From positions 62,001 through 126,000 of the forward strand of contig MDYQ01000419.1 of NCBI GenBank assembly GCA_003024175.1: 64,000 nt of DNA. The letters are read 5' to 3'. A model generated the notes under the pieces. That model made no database searches. It worked only from the letters and a program-made list of their open reading frames with translations, and had not been told where the DNA came from. This DNA comes from Planoprotostelium fungivorum (taxonomy: Eukaryota > Evosea > Variosea > Cavosteliida > Cavosteliaceae). The position numbers and the translations under genes are program-made. Numbering within the stretch: position 1 is the first letter of the stretch; every line of letters starts with the position of its first letter. Positions 27,060 to 52,600 of the stretch are shown here, piece after piece.

Positions 27060-29338
27060 TCAATGGAGGAGCGTGTGATCGTATCCCGATGATGGTTGGT
27101 CTGTCGGTTGTTTCTTCGCGTTGTAAGTCTCCAACACCAGCTCCTTGTCCACAATTCGATGCTTCTCTAATCCAGTGATCTCGTAGTTGATCTGGAGGAA
27201 CTTTTGGAACTGCGGCGAGTCTGCGAGGAAATCGGGCAGCGTCTTCTTTGGAGCCCACACATCATCTTTCGTGATGAGATAATGTCTGACCCTCTTCTCT
27301 GGATCCGTCTCGTCTATGACGTAGCCGATGGCAAACGTGCCGGGGTTGCTCTCCGATAGACGGATTAAGAAGGTGCCCACGTCTTGATTCACCAACGCAG
27401 CGTTGACGGTGTCGCGGGGGACGTACCCATAGATGAGCCTGGGAAGGTCAGGGAAGGTGGCGCGTTGTAGATGTCCCACCCGTGCTGCCACATGGAGCAG
27501 AGGTGGCGTTGATAGCGGAGCTTCTGCAGGCCCTTACCGAACCAGGCCCAGAAGTCATCGAACATTTTGATCGTGATGTTACTGTTGCCACCGAAGAATT
27601 TGGCTGAGATGTACTGCAGCTCGGATCTTGATAAGAAGCGTTGGGGCTTGACTGGATCTTGTCGAGTGGCTCTTAGAAAGTGTCGCTGGAGGAGGTTACC
27701 GAAGAGGGCCCAGGGAACTTGTGTGTCGCTCTGTTTCCGTCAGTGTGATGATCGCCAATGCCGATGATGATCGTGATGGCATGATGGACGATGGTGATGA
27801 TGATGACGATCGGCTCACGCTCTGGAAAGACTCTGCACGTAAGAGGAGGCCGTCCGACTCTTCAAACTGACACTCGTTCGTAATGACAACGAACGGATGA
27901 GACGGATTGGACTCCACGGGAATGACCGCCCCTCCCCTCAACTTCACTTGCATGTCAAACTTTAAAGTCGCGAGATTCTTCCTCGTTCCGTTGAGAAACT
28001 TGATGTTGAACTTTGCAATTTTCGTGTTGGGGTCCATGTCCTCCTGCTCGTTCTCGATGTTTTTAGAGGGTGTACCCTTTGGTTGTGTCGAGTCCATGTT
28101 GACGACGACGTGCAGCTGTGAGATGGTCTCGATGTCAACGTGGGCACCGGTCATGAGTTGAACGGCGACCGGCTCTTCTGTGGGTCTTCCTTTGGTCAGA
28201 ACGGCGGGAAAAGGTTGTTGGATGATGACGAGGGCGATGTAACTGGAAGAGTCAGGGAGAAGTGGTGGAAAATTCGATCACCATCGTGGAGGGTTGGATG
28301 GTACTTTCAGTGACATGAGCTCCTGATGATACAACTCCAGCTGCATGCTCTGCGTCTGGAGATCTTGGTGGAGGTAGAAGGCTTTGTTCACCTTTTCGTC
28401 ACGTTAAGGTCTGAAGAATAAAATCTTTTGAAACCGATTTTTTTGAGAGATGGTATAAGAGGATGAGCGTTACCTCGTTGGGGGCGAAGATGTTGCTTCG
28501 ACCCAAGTGAGCGAGCATCTGCAGCTGTTGGTCGATATTTCTCTTCAACTCTTCGTGCATCTGATTCAACTTGTGAAATTCTTCATCTGAGACGGCATGC
28601 ATGACTTTGAATTGGAGGTTTCTTATGTTCTGGAGATCTTCCACCTGTTGTATTGTGACGAAGAGGATGAGAATGAAAGGTTCACCTGCTTGTGATAGAA
28701 GGCCTCGATCTGTTGTAGCATGTGACTGCTGGGTTCGGCCGTTCTGGCAAAGTCTCTGGCACTGTTGTCACGATACGTTCCGTTCATCTGTGGAGATAGA
28801 GGTCGCTTCTGTGGGTAAACGGCTCCATTAGTTGATGCATTTGCATTTGGATCTCGAATCGATGGCAGAACGATGGGAGGTGTTCCAAGGCCACCGAAAG
28901 AAGGTCCAGGGCTGTGGACGGCCGAGGGTGTGAAGAGGGGAAGGGGGGAAAATGCAGACGAAGATGAATTGTTGAGACCGGTGTTGAGACGCTTCGTGGG
29001 AGGGTAGAAGGAAGATTGAGAGATTCCACTCGTGCTGCTGGTGAGAAAACCTAATGTGATGTCGTCAACGATCGAGAATGATGGAGAGGGAGTATACCTC
29101 CACTCGACTGGAAGGCACCAACATCTTGTGCCTCGGGGAAGGTGATGTTGCCGGATGCGGTCAGAGTAAACCCAGCGTCCATTTCATTGCTCCTGAGCCG
29201 ATTCAGTCTCTCCTCCTTCGTTTCAATCTTATCAGAAAGAGAGAGGTATAGATCGAGTCGCGCGAGAATGTATATCTACCACGATGATACGATTAACGCC
29301 ACTCACTCTAAACCGAGGAGCTGATGGATATCACTCAT
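27060..29338 (-). CDS. STAT-family transcription factor
   Basis: Start [10 protein letters not shown] (29338). A helical N-terminal region includes [24 protein letters not shown]-binding beta-barrel region has [12 protein letters not shown] and [16 protein letters not shown], and a linker has [18 protein letters not shown] and [17 protein letters not shown]. The SH2 domain follows an intron and reads [32 protein letters not shown] (pTyr-binding Arg in LIRLSES) and RVRHYLI. The extreme C terminus has a Tyr ([10 protein letters not shown]), the likely phosphorylation site for SH2-mediated dimerisation. Layout and the short C terminus match Dictyostelium STATs. STATs occur in animals and amoebozoans, so this gene guides the taxonomic call. 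Role: signal-dependent nuclear transcription control. Confidence 0.92.
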
Positions 29339-35859: not shown

Positions 35860-38800
35860 TTAGAAATAGAGATCGGAGTCTTTCTCTTCTGGATAGACGA
35901 CCTTCTGCTCCATCCTCATCCTCTCGCTCAACTGACTCAAACTCGGTCTCTTCTCTGTCAATTCTTCCGTGCACTCTGCGATGAGCTCGGCCAATCTCTC
36001 GTCCACAGACTTGTCTGTCACAAAGTGAACCTCATTGTCCTCCAAGTCGTCGTAGAGGTGGTGGTTGTCTGTTGCCATGCACCACAGTAAGACTCCGATG
36101 CTGTACACGTGGCCGCTTGCAACGTATCTCTTTCCTTTGATGATCTCCGGAGCCTGATCAAACGATGATCAGACGATCGCTCATCACATCTTCTCTCTCA
36201 CCGTCTGCATGTTGTTCTTCTTCGGTTGATGGGGAGAGTTTTCTGTGACGATGCTCGATAGACATTGCAATTTCACGTTCATCCCATTATCGGCAGATAA
36301 TAAGACCTGAGATGATGTCAACGATCATCTGATGGTGGTGACGACATCACCTTCTTTGGAGTAACACGAGTGTGTACCATACCCATAGCAGTGAGATAAG
36401 ATAATGCGCTAGTCAATCCTCTCGCACTGTTTCCCTATTAATTCAACTCTTTGAACGAAATACCCACATTGAAAAGACGATCATCAGCATCGGTTGAGGG
36501 TGAAGACACAGATAACTGTCCAGAGTGTCGTGGTTCATCCATTCCATGACGACGTAATTCTCCGTTAGATTTCGACCGAGGTATTGTACGATGTTGGGAT
36601 GATGTAACGCCTACCACAGTGAGCTCGTATTCATCGTTTGTTACTATTCTTCACCTTCACAACATCGCACTCTCTCAATACGTCTACATGTTGTGCACAC
36701 TTCTTCAGGGCAACTGTGGTGGTCTCTTTGTACGTACCCTTCCACACTTCTCCTCTCGCTCCTTCGGCTATCTTCTCGCCAAAGACGATTCCGTCCGTGT
36801 CCAACACGGTGAAAAGCGATATATCGCGATCCTTCTGTTTGCGGTCAGTCTTTCATTCAAATGATCGTTCAATTTCGCAAAGTTTCACATTCTCATTCGT
36901 CGATGGGGATATGTTCGATCGATGTCTCACCTCATCGTATCGATATATTCTACGGTAGATCGTTACAGAAATGACAACGATGAGAACGAGGGCACCCAGG
37001 ATACTGCACGTGATGATGGCGATGACCGCCTTGTTCTGATTGGATGAGGTCGTGCCCGCCTCGGCAGCCACTTGATGAGGTGCGGCATCGATTCCGATGG
37101 AGAAATTCGTCAAGTGATCACTCTGACAGATGGTGACGTCTCCCTCTACAACGAGTCCGCATCCATCTCTCGACCATTGAGAGCGTGGTTCGTTCCAGTA
37201 CTGGCACACGGCAACTGCAGCGTGTCAATATAAATGGTTTTCGCGTTGCACATATCAGAAGATTCAAACGATTTTGAAATCGTTACATTTAGCTGCGTGT
37301 GAATGTGTACTCACTGGAGTTGGGAGGAATGATATCGATGATGCCCATGCTGATGTTGATCTTCTCTTTCGTTCCTTTGATTTCAATCTCTCTTCCATCG
37401 GAATACACGCTCACTCCTACCACCTTACTGTAACTGTCTTTCCATCAGTCTTCAATTTCATAACGAATGTACATACATGGCCTGATTTTGAACCGATGCA
37501 AACGGGTTGAAGGACACCGATGAGAGAGATACTGAAACTGTCCATGTGTCATTCTCTTTCTTTTGAGATATCCATCACCTTTCTGCGAGTTGAACGCAGT
37601 GATTGGAAGAGATACAGCTACGTTATCGTTGATGCTGCTCTGTATCGTCCGTATTCCCCCTGAACTCAGATTGTAGGTCTGCAATTTGATCGATACATCT
37701 CGTGTGTTGTACTCGAAAGATGAAGTGTTGCGTAGGAGAGCCGTGATCACGGCTGAGATGGTTCTGCTCGTCTGTCTCTCGTCAGTTACAACTGTCTCAC
37801 ACACTCCCACCTCGGTTCCATTCAAGAGTGTGCTGTTCAATATGCTCTGTAGTACATCAGCCATCTCTTCTCTCTGTCGTTCAGCTCACCTGTGCACGGT
37901 CCACTGATATGACGGTATCGTTGTCGTATAACGAATCGATCACGGAAGCCAATGAAGCGTTCGTAGAGCTTACGATCGATGAAGTCGAAATGTCTGTTGT
38001 AGAGGAGAAGCTCGTAGTGGGAGAGGTTGACACAGCAGTGGTACTCGAAGTGGTCGACTCTGTGCTCGTGCTGGAAGACGTAGACTCTGTGCTACTGCTG
38101 GACGCGGTAGGTTCTATGCTAGCACTGGAAGACGTAGATTCTATGCTGGAGCTGGAAGACGTAGACTCTGTACTGGAGCTGGAAGACGTAGATTCTGAAC
38201 TAGTGCTGGAGGTGATCAAATCTGTGCTGGAAGACGTAGACTCTGTGCTACTGCTGGAAGATGTGGACTCGGCACTACTGCTGGAAGATGTAGACTCTGT
38301 ACTACTGCTGGAAGTGGTCGACTCTGTGCTAGTAGAGGAAGTGGTTGGATCTATGCTTGTACTGGCAATGGTGGAGGTCATGTCTGAAGAGGAGGTAGTG
38401 GGATGTGTGTCTTCAGTGGAAGTGGTGGATGATGTCACATCCGTGGTGGAGCTTGTTGATGTTGTGTCTACCGTTGATATGGATGAAGGAATCACGTCAT
38501 ATGTGGAAGAGGTGGTGTCTGTGGTAGATGTAGATGGTGCATCATCGGTTGTAGGAGATGTTGTAGATGAGGTAGACACTGCGTCTGTGCTACTCGTGGA
38601 AGAAGTAGGATCTACGATCGAAGCACTGGAAGACGTTGTAGATGAAGTGGTCGTTGTAGAGGAAGAACTCGTTGTAGATGAAGTGGTCGTTGTAGAGGAA
38701 GAACTCGTTGTAGATGAAGTGGTCGTTGTAGAGGAAGAACTCGTTGTAGATGAAGTGGTCGTTGTAGAGGAAGAACTCGTTGTAGATGAAGTGGTCGGTG

Positions 38801-40504
38801 TGGCTGAAGATGTGCTGGATGTGGTACTCGAAGACATTGAGGTGGTGGAGGTGGTTGGAGCCGTCTTGCTGGTGGAGGACGTTGTAGATGAAGAAGTTGG
38901 CGGTTTGGTAGGTTCGATACAACGAACGGGCATCTGGCATATCAGCGCCACGTTCAGCTTCGGATAACAGAAGAAAGGGTTTCCTCTCATATCACATGTG
39001 CGGCTGACACCGATGTAACCCACGGACGTGAAATTGTTGTTACTCAGATCTAGATCAGTCAAGTTGGAGAGTCCACTGTTCCTTCCCGTCACACTACCGT
39101 TCAAGAAATTATTGGCCAGACTCAGCCCCTGTAAGTTGGGTAGGTTGATGACACTGAAATTGGCTGCAGGGCGTCAGAATCTATCTTCCATGTTGTCGTC
39201 TCACCCGAAAGAGGTCCACTGAATTGGTTGTACTGGAGGTTGATAACAGAGAGAGAACTCATGCTGCCGATGGTGGAAGGGATGGATCCGCTGAATTGGT
39301 TGTTGTATAGAAAGAGTCGTTGTAAATTCGTGAGGTTACTGATGGAGGGTGAGATCGAGCCCGTGAGCATATTCTGAGCCAAAGCCAACTCTACGAGTTG
39401 GTTCAGATTCCAAACAGAAGAGGGGATGATTCCACGGAGCTGATTGTTGTACAAGTAGAGATACTTGAGAGAATTCAAGTTGCCGATTGATGTGGGGAGA
39501 ATTCCGCTCAGCTGGTTGTTGTGCAAGAGGAGGTACTGGATGGAAGTGAGATTACCGATGGATGTTGGAATGCCTCCGCTGAGTAGATTGTTTGACAAAT
39601 CTAGAAAGGAGAGAGAAGTGAGATTCTGGAGGGGAGGAATGACACCACTGAGCTGGTTGTTGTTCAGCCACAGGACATTGAGAGACGTCATGTTTCCGAT
39701 GTAAGGTGGGACGGATCCGGTGATTGCGTTGGAAGAGAGGTCCAGGGAGAAAAGATAGACCAGGTTTTGAATGAAAGGGAAGGTCCCGTTGAGTTGGTTG
39801 TTGTTCAACCACAGGATCTGGACCGTCTTGATGCTTCCGATGGACGAAGGAATGAGGCCGGTGATGGAGTTGTAAGAGAGGTCCAAGGATCCGATGGAGC
39901 TGAGACCTGAGACGGAGGGAATGGTTCCGTTCAGTTGGTTGTTATTCAGCCAGAGGTAAGACAGAGACTGTAAATTTCCCACGGACGACGGGATGGACCC
40001 GATGAGATTGTTGTAGGACAGATCCAAGACGGTGAGGGAAGTAAGACTCCCGATGGCGGAAGGGATCGGACCCGTGAGACGATTGACAGAGAGATTCAAC
40101 GAGGTGAGGGTGGTAAGACTGCTCAATGAAGAGGATATACTTCCGTTGAGAGCAAGGCCATAAAGGTTGATTTGCGCTGGGTTGCCATAGCCATCGCAGG
40201 TGACACCGATGAAATCAGCAGCATTGCATATCTGAGAAATGGTCAGATTCTGTTCGGACTTGCGTGTAATATCATCGACTGTGCGATGATCAAGAGTTCG
40301 CGCAGTGAGCTCACATTACTTCCTCTCCAATAACTCGTCGAACCTGAATGGTCTCAGAATCAAAGAAAGACCGATTACCCTACCTCCTAATGTTTGCCAA
40401 ATCGTCCTCATCGTCGTCGCAGTGCTATAAGCTCCACATACTATGGGTACGAATAGAAACAGATGGATGATCCAGATGGATCGAAATGAGATGCCAGAAC
40501 CCAT
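35860..40504 (-). CDS. LRR - Ser/Thr stalk - GAIN-like/GPS - TM - pseudokinase receptor
   Basis: A signal peptide (IWIIHLFLFVPIVCGAYS) and an LRR cap (NAADFIGVTCDGYG) precede about 14 plant-type LRRs (e.g. NLTSLSFLDLSNNLLSGGIP), 40130-39000. A Ser/Thr-rich stalk of about 350 residues, partly a 36-bp tandem repeat, spans 38930-37880. A GAIN-like part (ADVLQSILNSTLLNGTEVG) leads to a GPS motif: CQYWNEPRSQWSRDGCG, then CQSDHLTNFSIGI, with the HL-T autocleavage site. A TM helix (AIITCSILGALVLIVVISV) is next. The kinase domain has GVWKG-like loop EGARGEVWKG, the Lys in TVALKK and a helix-C Glu (LRECDVVKALHHPNIV), but HTRVTPKKVLL replaces HRDLKPxN and KLQCLS replaces DFG. APEIIKGKRY and the C lobe are normal. 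So it should bind and signal without phosphotransfer. Ends SDLYF at 35860. Confidence 0.85.
38636..38793. repeat. 36-bp tandem repeat coding the Ser/Thr stalk
   Basis: About four near-perfect 36-bp units inside the receptor gene; sense strand codes alternating TTTSSTTSSSS. The opposite strand has a long acidic open frame (37828-38967) that is only the complement of this repeat. Unit number is likely to vary between strains. Confidence 0.85.
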
Positions 40505-40910: not shown

Positions 40911-42196
40911 TCAATAAGAACCGATGGAATCAGACTCGTCCACTCTGAGTAGTTTGATGGGAAAATTCTCGTTGATGACGTGCTGATCCGCCAGCAGAAT
41001 GACCACGTTCACGTCGAATTCAATCTTGAATTGTTTCGTGATGAGAGTGGGGCAGGTGAACAATCGAGGGAAAACCATGAAGAGTGGAATCGAGATGCCC
41101 TTCTGCGGATCACCATCTGCTACCTGATCGATGATGAGATCGAGTGGAACGCATCATCATCATCATCTCTCCAGGTGGGATGATCGATCGTGATGTGATG
41201 TGAAGTGTACGAAAATCACCTGGATGTTCTGTATCTCGGTTGATTCTTTGGACACACCATCTGTACCGCCTGTCGATCACGTCATCATGATGTGATCCAG
41301 ATATCATCATTCGTCAAGGAGAGATCGCCCACCTCCGCAGGTCTCCACTCGAACGAGTTGAACTTCGATGGAGCGGATCTTCTCATCACATTCCTCGACG
41401 ATGATGTATCCAGTGAACGGTTTGTTGATATTGAAGACCTTGGCATCGATTTGGCCCTTCATCTTAAAGTGTGGGATGTTCTTGCTCTGTTCCGTTCATC
41501 AGCTTCATTCGAAATGAGATGATGGCGATCACCTTCTTTGCATTCTCCAGGGCTTCCGGAGTGATGGTGAAATCGATGGGCTCAGATGGAGGAAGTGTCT
41601 GTTGACTCTGTTGTGGTCAGTGATGCATGGGGATTGATGATGTTTCGAACCTTGATCTCGACGACAAATTCGACTTGCTTCTGCAGATTCTTGGCCAGCA
41701 TTCCTCTCTGTAAGTCTGCACGGATATAGTATTGTATGTTGATGAAGACTCCATTGTATGTCTCATACAGAGTGTTTCCTGTCATGGCCTCTAATTTGAA
41801 TTCAAATGGGATTTCTGTGTCTCCAGTCTCGAACTTTCCTGCGGGTGCCAGATCTGCTCACATATCATCCGAGATGTTCAGATTATATTTCAATCAGAGG
41901 CAACAGATATGGAATTGATCAAATAAAACATCAGAACTGACCGACTGTGGCAAAGATGTTCGGAAATGGCTTGACATTGTTCGCACCCCCGGAATCCATG
42001 ATTCCACGGCTCGTTTTCAGATTGACGATTCCTTCTAATACGAGACGTAGTCCAGAGTGAGACATTCTCGAGGGAGTCGAAATGATTACGACTCCAGTAA
42101 CGTCATCCTATCAAGAGTTAGACATAATCGATTAGGTTCACATACTCCCGGTCTGTATATACGATCTACTCTCTTTACCCGGATGTCCAGCGACAT
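40911..42196 (-). CDS. VPS26C: VPS26C (DSCR3) subunit of the Commander/Retriever complex
   Basis: Arrestin-like fold. Start MSLDIRVKRVDRIYRPG, then GVVIISTPSRMSHSGLRL, FPNIFATVG, TLYETYNGVFINIQYYIRAD and KNLQKQVEFVVE. The C-terminal half has ADGDPQKGISIPLFMVFPR, FTCPTLITKQFKIEFDVN and VINENFPIKLLRVDESD. Start, LYETYxGVF block and the RLFTCPT block are diagnostic of VPS26C rather than VPS26A/B. Family role: with VPS35L and VPS29 it recycles cargo from endosomes to the plasma membrane. About seven short introns. About 320 residues, close to human. Confidence 0.92.
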
Positions 42197-42309
42197 GGTG
42201 ATGATGATCCGATGTGTGTGACGTATTCTACAACGAACAATAAATGACTTTTCGATGTTTTATTCTTTTGATAACACGCTCAGCGGGCTTCAGCCCCTTT
42301 CTTCTCATC

Positions 42310-45300
42310 TCATGCCGTGTTCAACATGATGAGGAACCTCTTCTCTCTCCTCTTTCTCGCTTCATCTTCAGAGCTGCTCTGACCCTTGGTGGCTGTTTGT
42401 TTACGTCAGACGATCTCATCATCACTGCAAAGATGATGAGACATACCTCCTCGCCGCAGTAAGAGGAAGATGAGACAGGAGAAGAGAACGAACAGAGTGA
42501 GGATGGTATAGATGACGTAGTGTTTGCTCAAGCTCAACCTCGATGCCAACTCTTGTCTCTCCTTCGGTGTCCTGCGTCGTCATCAGCCTCTCAAAAAAGG
42601 AGGAGATGTCTATCGAACCAATCCGAATCGATCTCACTTGTATGGCTCTGGGAATTCATCCAAGTGTAGCTGTGGATTCTGTATGTGGTCCGGGTACTCG
42701 AAAGTGGACTTCAACGGGAAGAGAGAGTCGTAGAAGTACTTGATTGCCTCTAAAACTTGAGGTGCACGTGGGTCCGTGTGGTTGATGTTGTCGTTCAGAC
42801 AGATAAACTTTTGTCTCCTCTCCCGAATTCCATCCAGTGACTTCTGTACGTTCGTGACGTTGAGTCCGATCATCAAGAAGGCCACTTCTTCTGTGTCCAT
42901 GATCTCGTGGCTGAAATTACGGTCAGCGTGAAATTTCACAGAAATCTCACCGATTTTTCGGTTTCTGACCAAAGTGGTCCCTCAGCTATTCGATGTCAGA
43001 TGGATGTCATGATGTCATGCCATGGAATATGATGTCTCTATGATCTCCCTCACCTTGCGGTACACCGTCTCACAGCTCATCATGGTGACGAGTGTGATGT
43101 TCCCTCCTTCACTACAATTTCTAAGAGTGTATTGGAGATCGGCCACGCTGTTCTCTTCTAAAGGGAGGGGACCGATGTGTGCTGCTGTCGTCCTCAATTC
43201 ATTGTCGTTCAGCCAACCGTCTTCGTTGACATCCAAATACTCGTACCACGTCTGATACATTCTCAATATGAATTCGAACGATCGAGAGTCTGTCTACAAC
43301 GAGCCCACCTCGGTCATATTGAACACACCGAGTTGGTGGATCATGAAATAAAAATAGGAAAATGCAAATTGCATGTCTTGTGGACTTCTCAGCTGATGCG
43401 ATGACGTGGCATCCCATTTGTCGGGCCACCTGGAGAGTCTCAGAATCGTGACATCTCCACGACATTTCATCTCACATCTTGTGTAGATCCTGAAGTGTCT
43501 CCAGATTGATGTAATGCGGCATGTGAGCGGGCACCTGTTCGTATCGTCGATTTGAATTCTCGTGAAATTTCACGGAGATCTCACTTTTCTAGCGACTGAA
43601 CCGTACGCGGCGTTCATCAAGGAGTTTACGAACTTGAGTGAATCACCGTACATGTCCTTCAGTTTTCTACCGGTGGCCGGTCTCACGTCACTCTGATCAC
43701 GTGACTTGTCCCAGTCCCATTGAACTGACGTCTCATCTTCGTTCTGCGGAACGTGAGCTGGACTACAACGAGGCGGCTCACCCATGGTTGATGCTTGATA
43801 TCTCCCCTGTTCTCGTAGTCTCTCATCTCTTTCAATTTTTCTGCGGCGCGTGTGTACCAATGCGTATCATTCGATGTCATGTTATCCAGATGAAATCTGA
43901 CGAAAATATCAGCCATCTACAACGAGGCGTCTCGAAATTTTGTTCCACCTGTCCTTGGCCATGGTGAGGATCTTGACGATGGTATCGCGGTCGAGATGTA
44001 AGACATCTCGGATGGAAGATACGACATGCTCCGTGATGTTGTAGTCCCTGTCATCGAGCATGTTGAAAGGGGTGACACCCTTCAGATCTCTCTCTTCGTA
44101 CATCTGTCTCTTCTGTAGATCTTCAGTTTTCCGTGAGATTTCTCCCACATTTCACCTGAATGGCTCTCTGGGCGCGTTGTAGTTCTTCGGGTAATTCCTC
44201 TTGCGGTACGGCGTTACGCTTCTACAACGAGTCACTTTTGAATCTCTATCATGACGCATTCGTCACGGTGCATCGTTCTACACCGTGTGACGAGGAGACT
44301 GATGGACTCACCACTTCGGGCTCTTGAATGTCCCTTGGGCCCTCTATGACCTCCTCCGAGACTGCAGGTGAGCTACCCGTACCGGTGAAAAGTGCTTCAG
44401 AAGGGATCATTGTCATGGCAGTCACTCCACTGTGGCTCATTTCTTCCAAATTCGTACTGTTATCCGTCGCTGATGACGTCAGACTACAACGAGCCATCCA
44501 TCACCCACCGGTCACGTGACTGATATTGAAGCGGAGTTGTAGTTTGGATCCATCCTTGTCGATGTTGATTTCTACCGATGCCGATTGCCTCTGGATGTTC
44601 TTGTGGAAAGTGAAGGTGATGATCTTGTGCTTCTGAGATATGGTAGAACTTCGAATGAGGACGATGTTGTCGTGTGAGCCGTCTGACACTCTACCCGTAC
44701 CGATGACCTGTCGTCGTGTGAAAACGGGAGAAAATTGGTGGAAAACTGCCCACCTCGGATAGATTGAGGTAAGCTGCGGGAATCCCGGGGGGAAATTCGA
44801 TAAATTCCGTCTGTGTGGAGGTCACTTGACACGATCTACAATTAGCCAACTCACCGTCTCGTTGAGCATCAAACCGTACACTTGCTCTTGTATTTCCGGT
44901 ACGTCACAATCACCAGCGTCAAAACCACATTCGGCCACTCTACAAGTTCGATCACAAAACTTGTCTCCGATCCAAGAGTCAGGGCAGCCAGAGGCACAGT
45001 AGGCTAAATATAGCGTCAATCTTCCGTCTACAACGGTGTAGACGACTCACCCGAAGCTCGGTTATTGTTGTTATTGTTGTAATTGTTGTTACCTCCGGCG
45101 TAATTATTGTTACCCGCTGTCATAATTCAGCATCCATCTACAACGTTGTAGATCACCATTGTAACTGGCACCTCCAGCGCTCGTCGTGACATTCTTACAG
45201 TCTCCCCCGTCAAAATCGCAGGCAGTACAATTGCAAGCTTGGTCACAGAAACCATCACCGATCCACGATGATGGACAACCTTCTGCACAATTGGGCACGG

Positions 45301-49611: not shown

Positions 49612-52600
49612 TCAGACAAAAAACTCTGGACAAACTTCGAGCTCTTCCTGAAGCTTAGAAAGAGAGGGTCTATCGGCGGGGTCTGTAGACAGACAGGCGT
49701 TGAAGATCTTCTGTATCGGAATGGACATGTTGTCTGGCGCTTTCAGACGTAGCGGATGATCGTTCATCACAACTCGTGTTGCGGTTTCCACGGGAGAAAA
49801 CTCTGAATACGGATCGACTCTGTTGAAAAATTAGAGTAGAACATCACATCGTGATGATGACAAAAATTTCTCATCTGAAAAGATGAAGATGAGGAGGACC
49901 TACCTAGCATAGATTTCAAAGAGCGTGACACCGAAAGCCCAGACTGGAAGAGTCAATCGATGACGCATCCACCATCCGTCTGATCTCACCATCAGACTTT
50001 TCTGAATAGACGGAATAGAGGAGACATTCGGGTGCCATGTGTTTCAGAGGACCAACCATTGTTGTTGTGAACTTCTCTCCACCCGTTCGATTGACTCGAG
50101 AGAGTCCAAAGTCTACAGAGATCAGAAGATGATGACGGATGATCTTGACGCACCAGACACTTTACCCGTGAAAGTCTTGTCTAATAAGATGTTCCTGGCA
50201 GCCAGATCTATTCTACATCAACTCTCTTCATTTCAATCGATAGAAAGACGAAGAGAGAATAAAATAAAATTTGCAGAAAAGTCTCACCCCTGTGAATGAT
50301 ACCCTCCGTGTGCTATTCTCGATCAGACAACAATAAAATGAAATAAAACCATCTCACCAGATGATACAGACCAGCCGCCACCCCCTTGATGATATTCACC
50401 AAGACCAACGTCTCCACGATCGCATTCGAATGCAACAAGTCATACAGAGATCCCAGCTCACACAACTGAGTGACTACACACATAGTGCTCTCCTTCACGT
50501 TCAGAGCGATACCCAGAAACTATAAAGACATGTAATTCAATGCGGTGACGTCATCTTCGTGATATCGAAAGAGGAACTTTACCTGCACGACGTTATTGTG
50601 TGGGCGGAGACGCTTCATGATGACGATTTCGGCCAGGTATGATTTTGCATTCTCTTCTCCCTCTACGGATAGTTGTTTCACTGCGACGGAAGAGCCTCTC
50701 CATTTACCTTTATAGACGATACCCTGTGACCCTGTTCTCCTTCAATGTCGTATAGATGTGTAAATGAAATCATATCCGATATTTAATTCGAGAGATTTGG
50801 GACTCGTCGTTGTAGATCACCTCGACCGATCTCGCGTCCCAAATTGAGCTCTTCGACTGGGATGGTACCCCACTGATCGTCTTCCAATATTTTTCTCAGA
50901 AGATTCTGCTTCTCTTCTCTGGTACCTCCCCCGTAGTATCCCCTCTGCTGATGTTCCTCTGAAGACAGAGTTCCGTATTCAGTTCCGTATTCAGTTCCGT
51001 ATTCGTTCGGTGGTATCAATCTGTTACATTGAGACGTCTCGTAGATGTCGACACGAGAGATTACCCTGTCATACGGTGTCTGTTTTGTCTACGTTTCTTT
51101 GTGATGAAGAAGGCAGATATGGTCATCAATAGGAACAAACCAAGTCCGATGACTACGGCGGCAGCGATAACAAATTTCTTGTGGCTGAAGACGTGAGCAC
51201 GTGAGAATAAAATGAAATAAAATACTCCGGGTCATTTTCGGTCGGGATTTCGATAGGGTGGAATGCGTTGTAGACGAGTAGAGATGAATTGTCGTTGTGT
51301 GTGGTCCAAATCATGACGCCTTTCAAATGAGAATTTGTAACCAATGCGACCTGAGTGTCTCAATATTTTGGGACTATGACATCTCACACGACATCTTACC
51401 TTATCTCTTATCGTTCTCTCACTCTCATAGCCGATCCATTGGTCATCTATACAAGTCATTGGTCGTTCTATAAGATATCATACCGATCACGAGGTATGAC
51501 GTCTTCGTGACGTCATCGTATCGTACGCTGTCTGGGTGCTTCATGATCAGCTCTTCTACCTGCAATATTTCAGATTTATGTCCGTCTACAACGAGCCACC
51601 TCGGGTCCAAGCAGTATACCGGATGAATTCTGACAACCGGGTGTACCACCACCCACCACCGCAGATCCCGGCGCATTCACGTTCGTATCTTTGAGAGTGT
51701 ACGTAGAAGCGTAATCTGGTATAGATATGACCAACTACAACGAGTCAGATATATAGGGGAAATTTCTACGAACTTTCTGAGGAGGTAACAGAGTCAGATA
51801 AGCTTGTACGGCGTCGTATAGTTGAGAGTAAGGAGAGGAAGAAGAGGTGCCACTTTGTTGACCCGAAAAACTTCCGAAATAATCGAGGGAGATGATGGTC
51901 AGCCAATCGGCTATCTACAATCAGCCACTTCTGTCCCTCCATCAGACTCACCGAGGGGGGCGAGCTTGTCGATCTGTAACTGATCGATGATGAAGGTGTC
52001 GCCGGGTACAGATATCGTGAGATTCAGATACGTGGCGTTCATCTCGAACATCTGATCGCGGATCGTTTGCAATGTCGATAGAGAATAGGATGGCTGATCG
52101 GAGTCACATCTCGATGCATCGAAGGAATGATGTGATGTGATGGATGTCGTGTGGCTCACGGGTTGTTTGGCTGTCCATTGCCAATGGAGATCGATGCCAC
52201 TGAAGTTGTGCTTCTGGACGTATTGAATCGCAGCCCTTGCGAACAATTTTCTCATGGTCTCATTGGTTCCCAACAGTTCGATCTGTCCGGCTGTGTCTGT
52301 CCTCGGTCCGAAGAATGTGATCTGACGACGATTAGTGAGAGAGGAGAGACAGGTGCTCACCAAGAATGAGACATCAGCGCCCTGTCTTTCCGCATCATTC
52401 CTCAACTGTTGATAGATGCCAGTCTCACCATCAGCACCTATGACGGCGAGTCAAAAATGGGATCAGGTGTTCACGTACCATTCGATTGAGGAGTGACGAT
52501 ATCTGTCCCATTGATCCAGTTTGCATACACGACTGAGATGTGTGTGTAACGATTATATTGCAACTTTTCTCTGTCAGTATTCGTGAGGAAGCTATCGAAT

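Follow-up and report, generated by a model that had tools for sequence, protein, structure and literature searches.

A minus-strand gene at positions 40504-35860 of the analyzed stretch of Planoprotostelium fungivorum DNA (64,000 nucleotides (nt) of contig MDYQ01000419.1; hereafter, the window) encodes a predicted receptor that consists, in this order, of a signal peptide, leucine-rich repeats (LRRs), a Ser/Thr stalk, a GAIN domain with a GPS motif, one transmembrane (TM) helix, a domain with the kinase fold and the C-terminal tail DSDLYF. We lean, with some reserve, toward the interpretation that this is a two-fragment, single-pass receptor pseudokinase that signals through release or shift of its outer fragment and through docking. 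An earlier note, made from the letters of this DNA, had described an LRR receptor with a GPS autoproteolysis motif fused to a pseudokinase; the predicted GAIN fold, the GPS motif, the kinase fold and the loss of catalytic residues all support that description.

Architecture of the receptor gene

The co-occurrence of these modules in one gene, as the note had it, was confirmed by Pfam matches, hydropathy and a single open model of 13 exons encoding 1319 amino acids, in which all introns are of the GT..AG type and 39 to 105 nt long. The features of the gene are as follows (window coordinates).

35860-40504, minus strand: whole gene, 13 exons, 1319 amino acids; bulk of the public protein PROFUN_03924
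40384-40504, minus strand: exon 1, start codon and signal peptide (hydrophobic residues 4-22)
38990-40230, minus strand: leucine-rich repeats, limits approximate (Pfam LRR_8, LRR_1, LRR_4, LRR_14)
37959-38912, minus strand: Ser/Thr stalk, residues 483-800, limits approximate (77% Ser+Thr)
37108-37958, minus strand: GAIN domain, residues ~801-995, spread over several exons
37096-37209, minus strand: GPS motif CQYWNEPRSQWSRDGCGLVVEGDVTICQSDHLTNFSIG (PF01825, 44.2 bits at C390:99096-99209)
37108-37116, minus strand: HLT triad (His993, Leu994, Thr995), with the cut predicted to fall between 37111 and 37110
36961-37029, minus strand: single TM helix, limits approximate (hydropathy maximum 3.13, residue 1023)
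35900-36790, minus strand: kinase-fold domain, exons 9-13
36351-36426, minus strand: catalytic-loop exon; VHTRVTPKKV replaces HRD..N
36202-36306, minus strand: exon carrying VKLQCLSS; CLS aligned with DFG
35860-35880, minus strand: C-terminal DSDLYF and stop codon, with the tail tyrosine

The LRRs are of the plant-like type (Pfam LRR_8, 113 bits), the 318-residue stalk is encoded by 36-bp and 27-bp tandem repeats, and the C-terminal part matches PK_Tyr_Ser-Thr (Pfam, 104 bits). Apart from the signal peptide, there is one hydrophobic helix, after the GPS, so that the LRRs, the single TM helix and the kinase fold are arranged as in LRR receptor-like kinases. The gene model runs from the TM exon into the kinase exons without a stop, and we saw no alternative HRD or DFG exon in any of its reading frames. 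In a protein search, the receptor showed 99% identity to a public P. fungivorum protein (PROFUN_03924), which, together with the recurrence of the architecture across the genome, argues that this architecture is not due to chance.

Two short introns lie within the GAIN part, one of 39 nt (37810-37772) and one of 41 nt (37578-37538). The latter was taken from the NCBI model, in which the former is coding; we treated the 39-nt stretch as an intron because its residues are present in no other aligned member and the predicted local distance difference test (pLDDT) score is below 50 there (residues 37-43 of the folding model).

A large family of GPS-containing receptors in one genome

The window receptor is one of a large family, which could not be seen from the window by itself. 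Searches of the genome, in which 150 of 176 candidates were scored, yielded at least 150 GPS matches above the cut-off of 22.5 bits for PF01825. Some of these come from near-identical stretches on separate contigs (C5/C120, C185/C187, C86/C467 and C360/C388, judged from equal scores), possibly haplotypes or duplicates in the assembly, and there are accordingly fewer genes than matches.

A kinase-family match was located within 2.5 kb downstream, on the same strand, of 115 of the 150 GPS sites, compared with 4 upstream and 4 on the opposite strand in the controls; the main count includes eight kinase matches hand-picked for their nearness to a GPS, whereas the controls omit the rest of that listing. 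By our reading, only one site, C362:76094, depends on these eight matches, and it is also matched by a further kinase query, which raised the count to 127 (2 upstream and 0 on the opposite strand in its own controls). Four more sites with kinase pieces in the sequence read bring the total to 131. The 27 GPS matches examined in 20 loci (23 distinct sites) are all followed by TM or kinase pieces, partially so in L011, which is near a contig end, and the same holds for 12 further loci, among which L040 is cut off. Among the matches listed in three protein searches of limited reach, 31 proteins have PF01825 among their precomputed domains; all are from Planoprotostelium, and 29 also contain PF07714.

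The family is partially clustered, with 10 GPS matches on contig C351. The contig that carries the window gene contains a second GPS-TM-kinase gene (L035, C390:128390-129950), about 2.4 kb past the window end and on the opposite strand to the window gene, in which VHGYICAKNV and SGFS replace HRD and DFG. Three public models (P0002, P0003 and P0009) have two GPS motifs per protein and are probably fused tandem neighbors.

GAIN/GPS module and predicted self-cleavage

The GPS motif reported in the note was recovered by PF01825 at 39.9 bits when residues 800 to the end were scanned alone; the full-length Pfam scan did not list it. The Pfam GAIN family PF16489 had no match genome-wide and, likewise, none in the controls; structure prediction yielded a GAIN fold around the GPS, in agreement with the GAIN-like part proposed originally. 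The HLT cleavage triad is in place in the window gene and is nearly invariant in the family: among the 52 GPS motifs read, which are not all independent, 51 have HLT and one has HFT. In P0037, the motif ends in HLTNF, and a separate H-V-S occurs earlier in the protein.

In an alignment with latrophilin-3, the residue at the third position of C-x-[F]-W falls at the place of latrophilin F803, 33 residues before the His, the same spacing as that from F803 to H836. This position is aromatic in 50 of the 52 motifs (Y 29, W 18, F 3; the remaining 2 have H), with Tyr in the window gene. According to a 2026 paper (PMC13062082), a Phe stacked on the His aids cleavage, and the F803W and F803Y variants of latrophilin-1, one of the adhesion G protein-coupled receptors (GPCRs), retain full cleavage competence.

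Several properties of the motifs weigh against cleavage. The window GPS keeps Cys 1-3 and has Ser in place of Cys 4, and therefore lacks one disulphide; Cys 4 is missing in 13 of the 52 motifs, including this one, and Cys 2 in 6. Moreover, as the same source states, H-X-S/T by itself does not guarantee cleavage, and it describes a receptor that has an HLS motif and resists cleavage (PMC13062082). Alternatively, the GAIN domain could be an uncut structural spacer, as in cleavage-resistant adhesion GPCRs, in a one-chain receptor. We consider this rather unlikely: the missing disulphide and the example of the HLS receptor speak for it, but a mere spacer would not need HLT and the aromatic residue paired with the His, both of which are nearly invariant.

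Kinase domain and loss of catalytic residues

The predicted kinase domain has a tyrosine-kinase-type fold, and the best solved-structure matches of its profile are tyrosine kinases. The Lys-Glu pair noted earlier is indeed there (VALKK and the αC Glu), as is APE, but not one of the three catalytic residues (HRD Asp, loop Asn and DFG Asp) is kept. HTRV takes the place of HRD, as originally read, with Lys at the Asn position, but the assignment of LQC to DFG has to be corrected, the aligned residues being C-L-S (within VKLQCLSS). By this loss of essential catalytic residues, the domain, judged from its sequence, fits the definition of a pseudokinase.

Similar losses prevail in the family. Among 60 catalytic loops, transcribed by hand and including near-identical copies (L013a/L024a, L019/L020 and others), so that they represent fewer than 60 independent genes, the HRD Asp is present in 5 (two of these being near-identical copies), the Asn in 10 and the DFG Asp in 19; all three are present in 2. 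Over 59 loops, the Asp place is occupied by S (11), R (10), Q (8), A (6), I (6), D (5), N (4) and others; the loop of L017, which has a different spacing and was read by eye, has S at the Asp place and K at the Asn place. This count leaves out repeat sightings of a locus as well as P0009.1, P0015, P0018, P0021, P0034, L011 and L040 (unclear, cut off or without a GPS) and includes P0031, which has no GPS among its precomputed domains; L029-L032 were chosen for high kinase scores, which biases the sample toward intact ones.

The two intact-looking paralogues are L034 (HTDIAARNV..ADFG) and L032 (HGDLCAANV..ADFS), both with VAVKK; we take their loops to resemble the tyrosine kinase motif. L031 has HCDVRARN with EFG. 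The window loop has its HT in common with the HTD of L034. As read from these loops, the genome has few intact-looking GAIN receptor kinases, and the large majority of those read are not intact.

Two alternatives to a conserved pseudokinase bear on these observations. First, the kinase domain might be active by an unusual mechanism, which would make the protein a normal receptor kinase that also has a GAIN domain; some kinases that lack the standard motifs are active, and this one retains the kinase fold together with VALKK, the αC Glu and APE. Nevertheless, we find this improbable given that all three catalytic residues are replaced in the window gene and that, over the 59 loops, no acidic residue regularly substitutes at the Asp place. 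Second, the family might consist of degenerating copies of a receptor kinase that was active in the past, the window gene being of little function, as could be suspected from a large, partly clustered family with two intact-looking members. To this we give equally little credence. The window gene is open across all 13 exons, and close relatives carry the same altered loop (VHT.V.PKK and similar) rather than random breaks. Furthermore, in the pseudokinase part of three clean paralogue pairs (L010b-L015, L010b-L022b and L015-L022b; others were set aside for a shifted or over-long piece), the silent/replacing changes are 8.0/1.0, 8.0/3.0 and 10.0/2.0, and this predominance of silent changes counts against plain decay, with the qualification that the pairs are only three, interdependent, young and from another subgroup than the window gene.

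C-terminal tail and phosphotyrosine context

A tyrosine lies within the last 12 residues in 32 of the 40 hand-gathered tails that were read to the stop codon (30 of 38 distinct last-12 strings; relatedness is otherwise ignored), compared with an expected share of 31% at 3% Tyr. It is preceded by an acidic residue within 4 positions in 24 of the 32, and D-P-Y occurs in 11; the fused or truncated ends of P0009, P0012, P0015, P0021, P0030, P0032 and P0034 were left out. Profile searches of the genome gave 79 SH2 and 43 tyrosine phosphatase matches (stretches, not genes), and tyrosine kinases along with SH2 proteins have been reported in Acanthamoeba and Physarum (PMC4758236). Given these tail tyrosines, genomic matches and reports, a phosphotyrosine reading of the tail is possible. 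An SH2 match (36.3 bits) is located in the same window as the receptor, at 27261-27434 on the minus strand (C390:89261-89434).

Proposed mechanism

The receptor could work as follows. The LRRs, raised on the mucin-like stalk, would bind a surface or a ligand. Going by the conserved chemistry, the GAIN domain would cut itself between the Leu and the Thr of HLT in the secretory pathway, and the LRR-stalk-GAIN fragment would stay non-covalently attached to a short fragment that starts with TNFSIG and contains the TM helix and the kinase domain. Binding of a ligand, or a pull, would shift or remove the outer fragment and thereby alter the clustering of the TM fragments. With the Lys-Glu pair kept but the Asp and Asn of the catalytic loop and the Asp of DFG missing, the kinase domain would be expected to serve as a scaffold or allosteric partner, probably in concert with the few intact-looking GAIN-kinase paralogues; the latter could phosphorylate the C-terminal tyrosine, leading to recruitment of SH2 proteins.

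Beyond the properties of the GPS discussed above, further points have to be set against the two-fragment pseudokinase model. A single-pass receptor offers no seven-transmembrane (7TM) bundle, and hence no pocket, for the freed N-terminus, so a tethered-agonist step is the least supported one of the mechanism. Of the 16 aligned relatives, only 12 have K at the β3 Lys position, so the Lys-Glu pair is not a rule in the family, and some proteins without HRD or DFG retain activity. No kinase match was found for 19 of the 150 GPS sites, and 8 of the 40 tails, that of P0031 among them, lack the tyrosine.

A broader scenario, a whole recognition system of self-cleaving and mostly non-catalytic receptors, seems doubtful at present: about a hundred LRR-GAIN-pseudokinase receptors would report via a small number of GAIN receptor tyrosine kinases that are intact, and loss of the outer fragment would free the conserved TNFSIG-type start as an intramolecular switch on a single-pass receptor. 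Such a system would allow this fungus-eating soil amoeba to distinguish between prey, kin or surfaces.

Relation to known receptors

The window receptor shares with adhesion GPCRs a large modular ectodomain, the GAIN fold, a GPS with HLT and a short segment from the cut to the membrane (starting with TNFSIG, compared with TNFAVLM in latrophilin-3), but the GPS is followed by one TM helix and a kinase fold rather than by a 7TM bundle. Polycystin-1 likewise combines LRRs with GAIN/GPS outside adhesion GPCRs, whereas the multi-pass C-terminal part of the polycystin-1 family is replaced here by a single TM helix; no PKD channel match was found within 10 kb of any of the 150 GPS sites. LRR receptor-like kinases of plants and protists, as which many family members are named by NCBI, have the signal peptide, plant-like LRRs, TM helix and kinase fold in common with the window receptor, which differs by the GAIN/GPS between the LRRs and the TM helix, by its tyrosine-kinase profile matches and by the loss of catalytic residues. 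Finally, HER3 and other receptor pseudokinases that work with an active partner resemble it in the absence of the catalytic Asp, the tail tyrosine and the presence of intact-looking relatives in the genome; here, however, they form a large family, with predicted self-cleaving ectodomains, in one unicellular species.

GPS motifs are known in polycystin-like protist proteins. A GPS row is also included in a table of a paper on a marine flagellate (PMC7852580). A 2025 eLife article describes GPCRs fused to kinases and indicates that the structured adhesion GPCR N-terminus, including GAIN, appears to be restricted to holozoans, with P. fungivorum in its proteome list (PMC12716839), and a survey of family 2 GPCRs of Amoebozoa that covers P. 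fungivorum reports no GAIN in them (PMC10445921); our findings do not contradict either, because both speak of GPCRs. LRR receptor-like kinases in Amoebozoa have been counted in a 2026 paper (PMC13091385), and the main text of the Acrasis genome paper mentions neither a GPS nor a GAIN domain (PMC11589745). By titles and the beginnings of abstracts, none of the papers among the matches listed joins GAIN/GPS to a kinase in a single-pass receptor. Each of the modules is known; in the literature that could be searched, we came across neither their combination nor its scale, nor the contrast of retained cleavage residues with lost kinase residues.

These observations put a complete GAIN/GPS module on amoebozoan single-pass receptors, so that the role of GAIN cleavage without a 7TM bundle can be asked directly. 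With cleavage residues conserved and kinase residues lost in one genome, the family amounts to a natural experiment on pseudokinase receptors; if the kinase domains are mostly non-catalytic, signaling would depend on shedding and docking instead of enzyme activity.

Neighboring genes

A Vps26/arrestin-type gene is located directly upstream of the receptor gene (window 40911-42981, minus strand). The NCBI model PROFUN_03924 (P0001 in our protein set) joins the two; this is probably an annotation fusion because the Vps26-type open reading frame stops at 40911. Elsewhere in the window, a weak kinase-like match was detected at 50526-50735 on the minus strand (E 0.0068).
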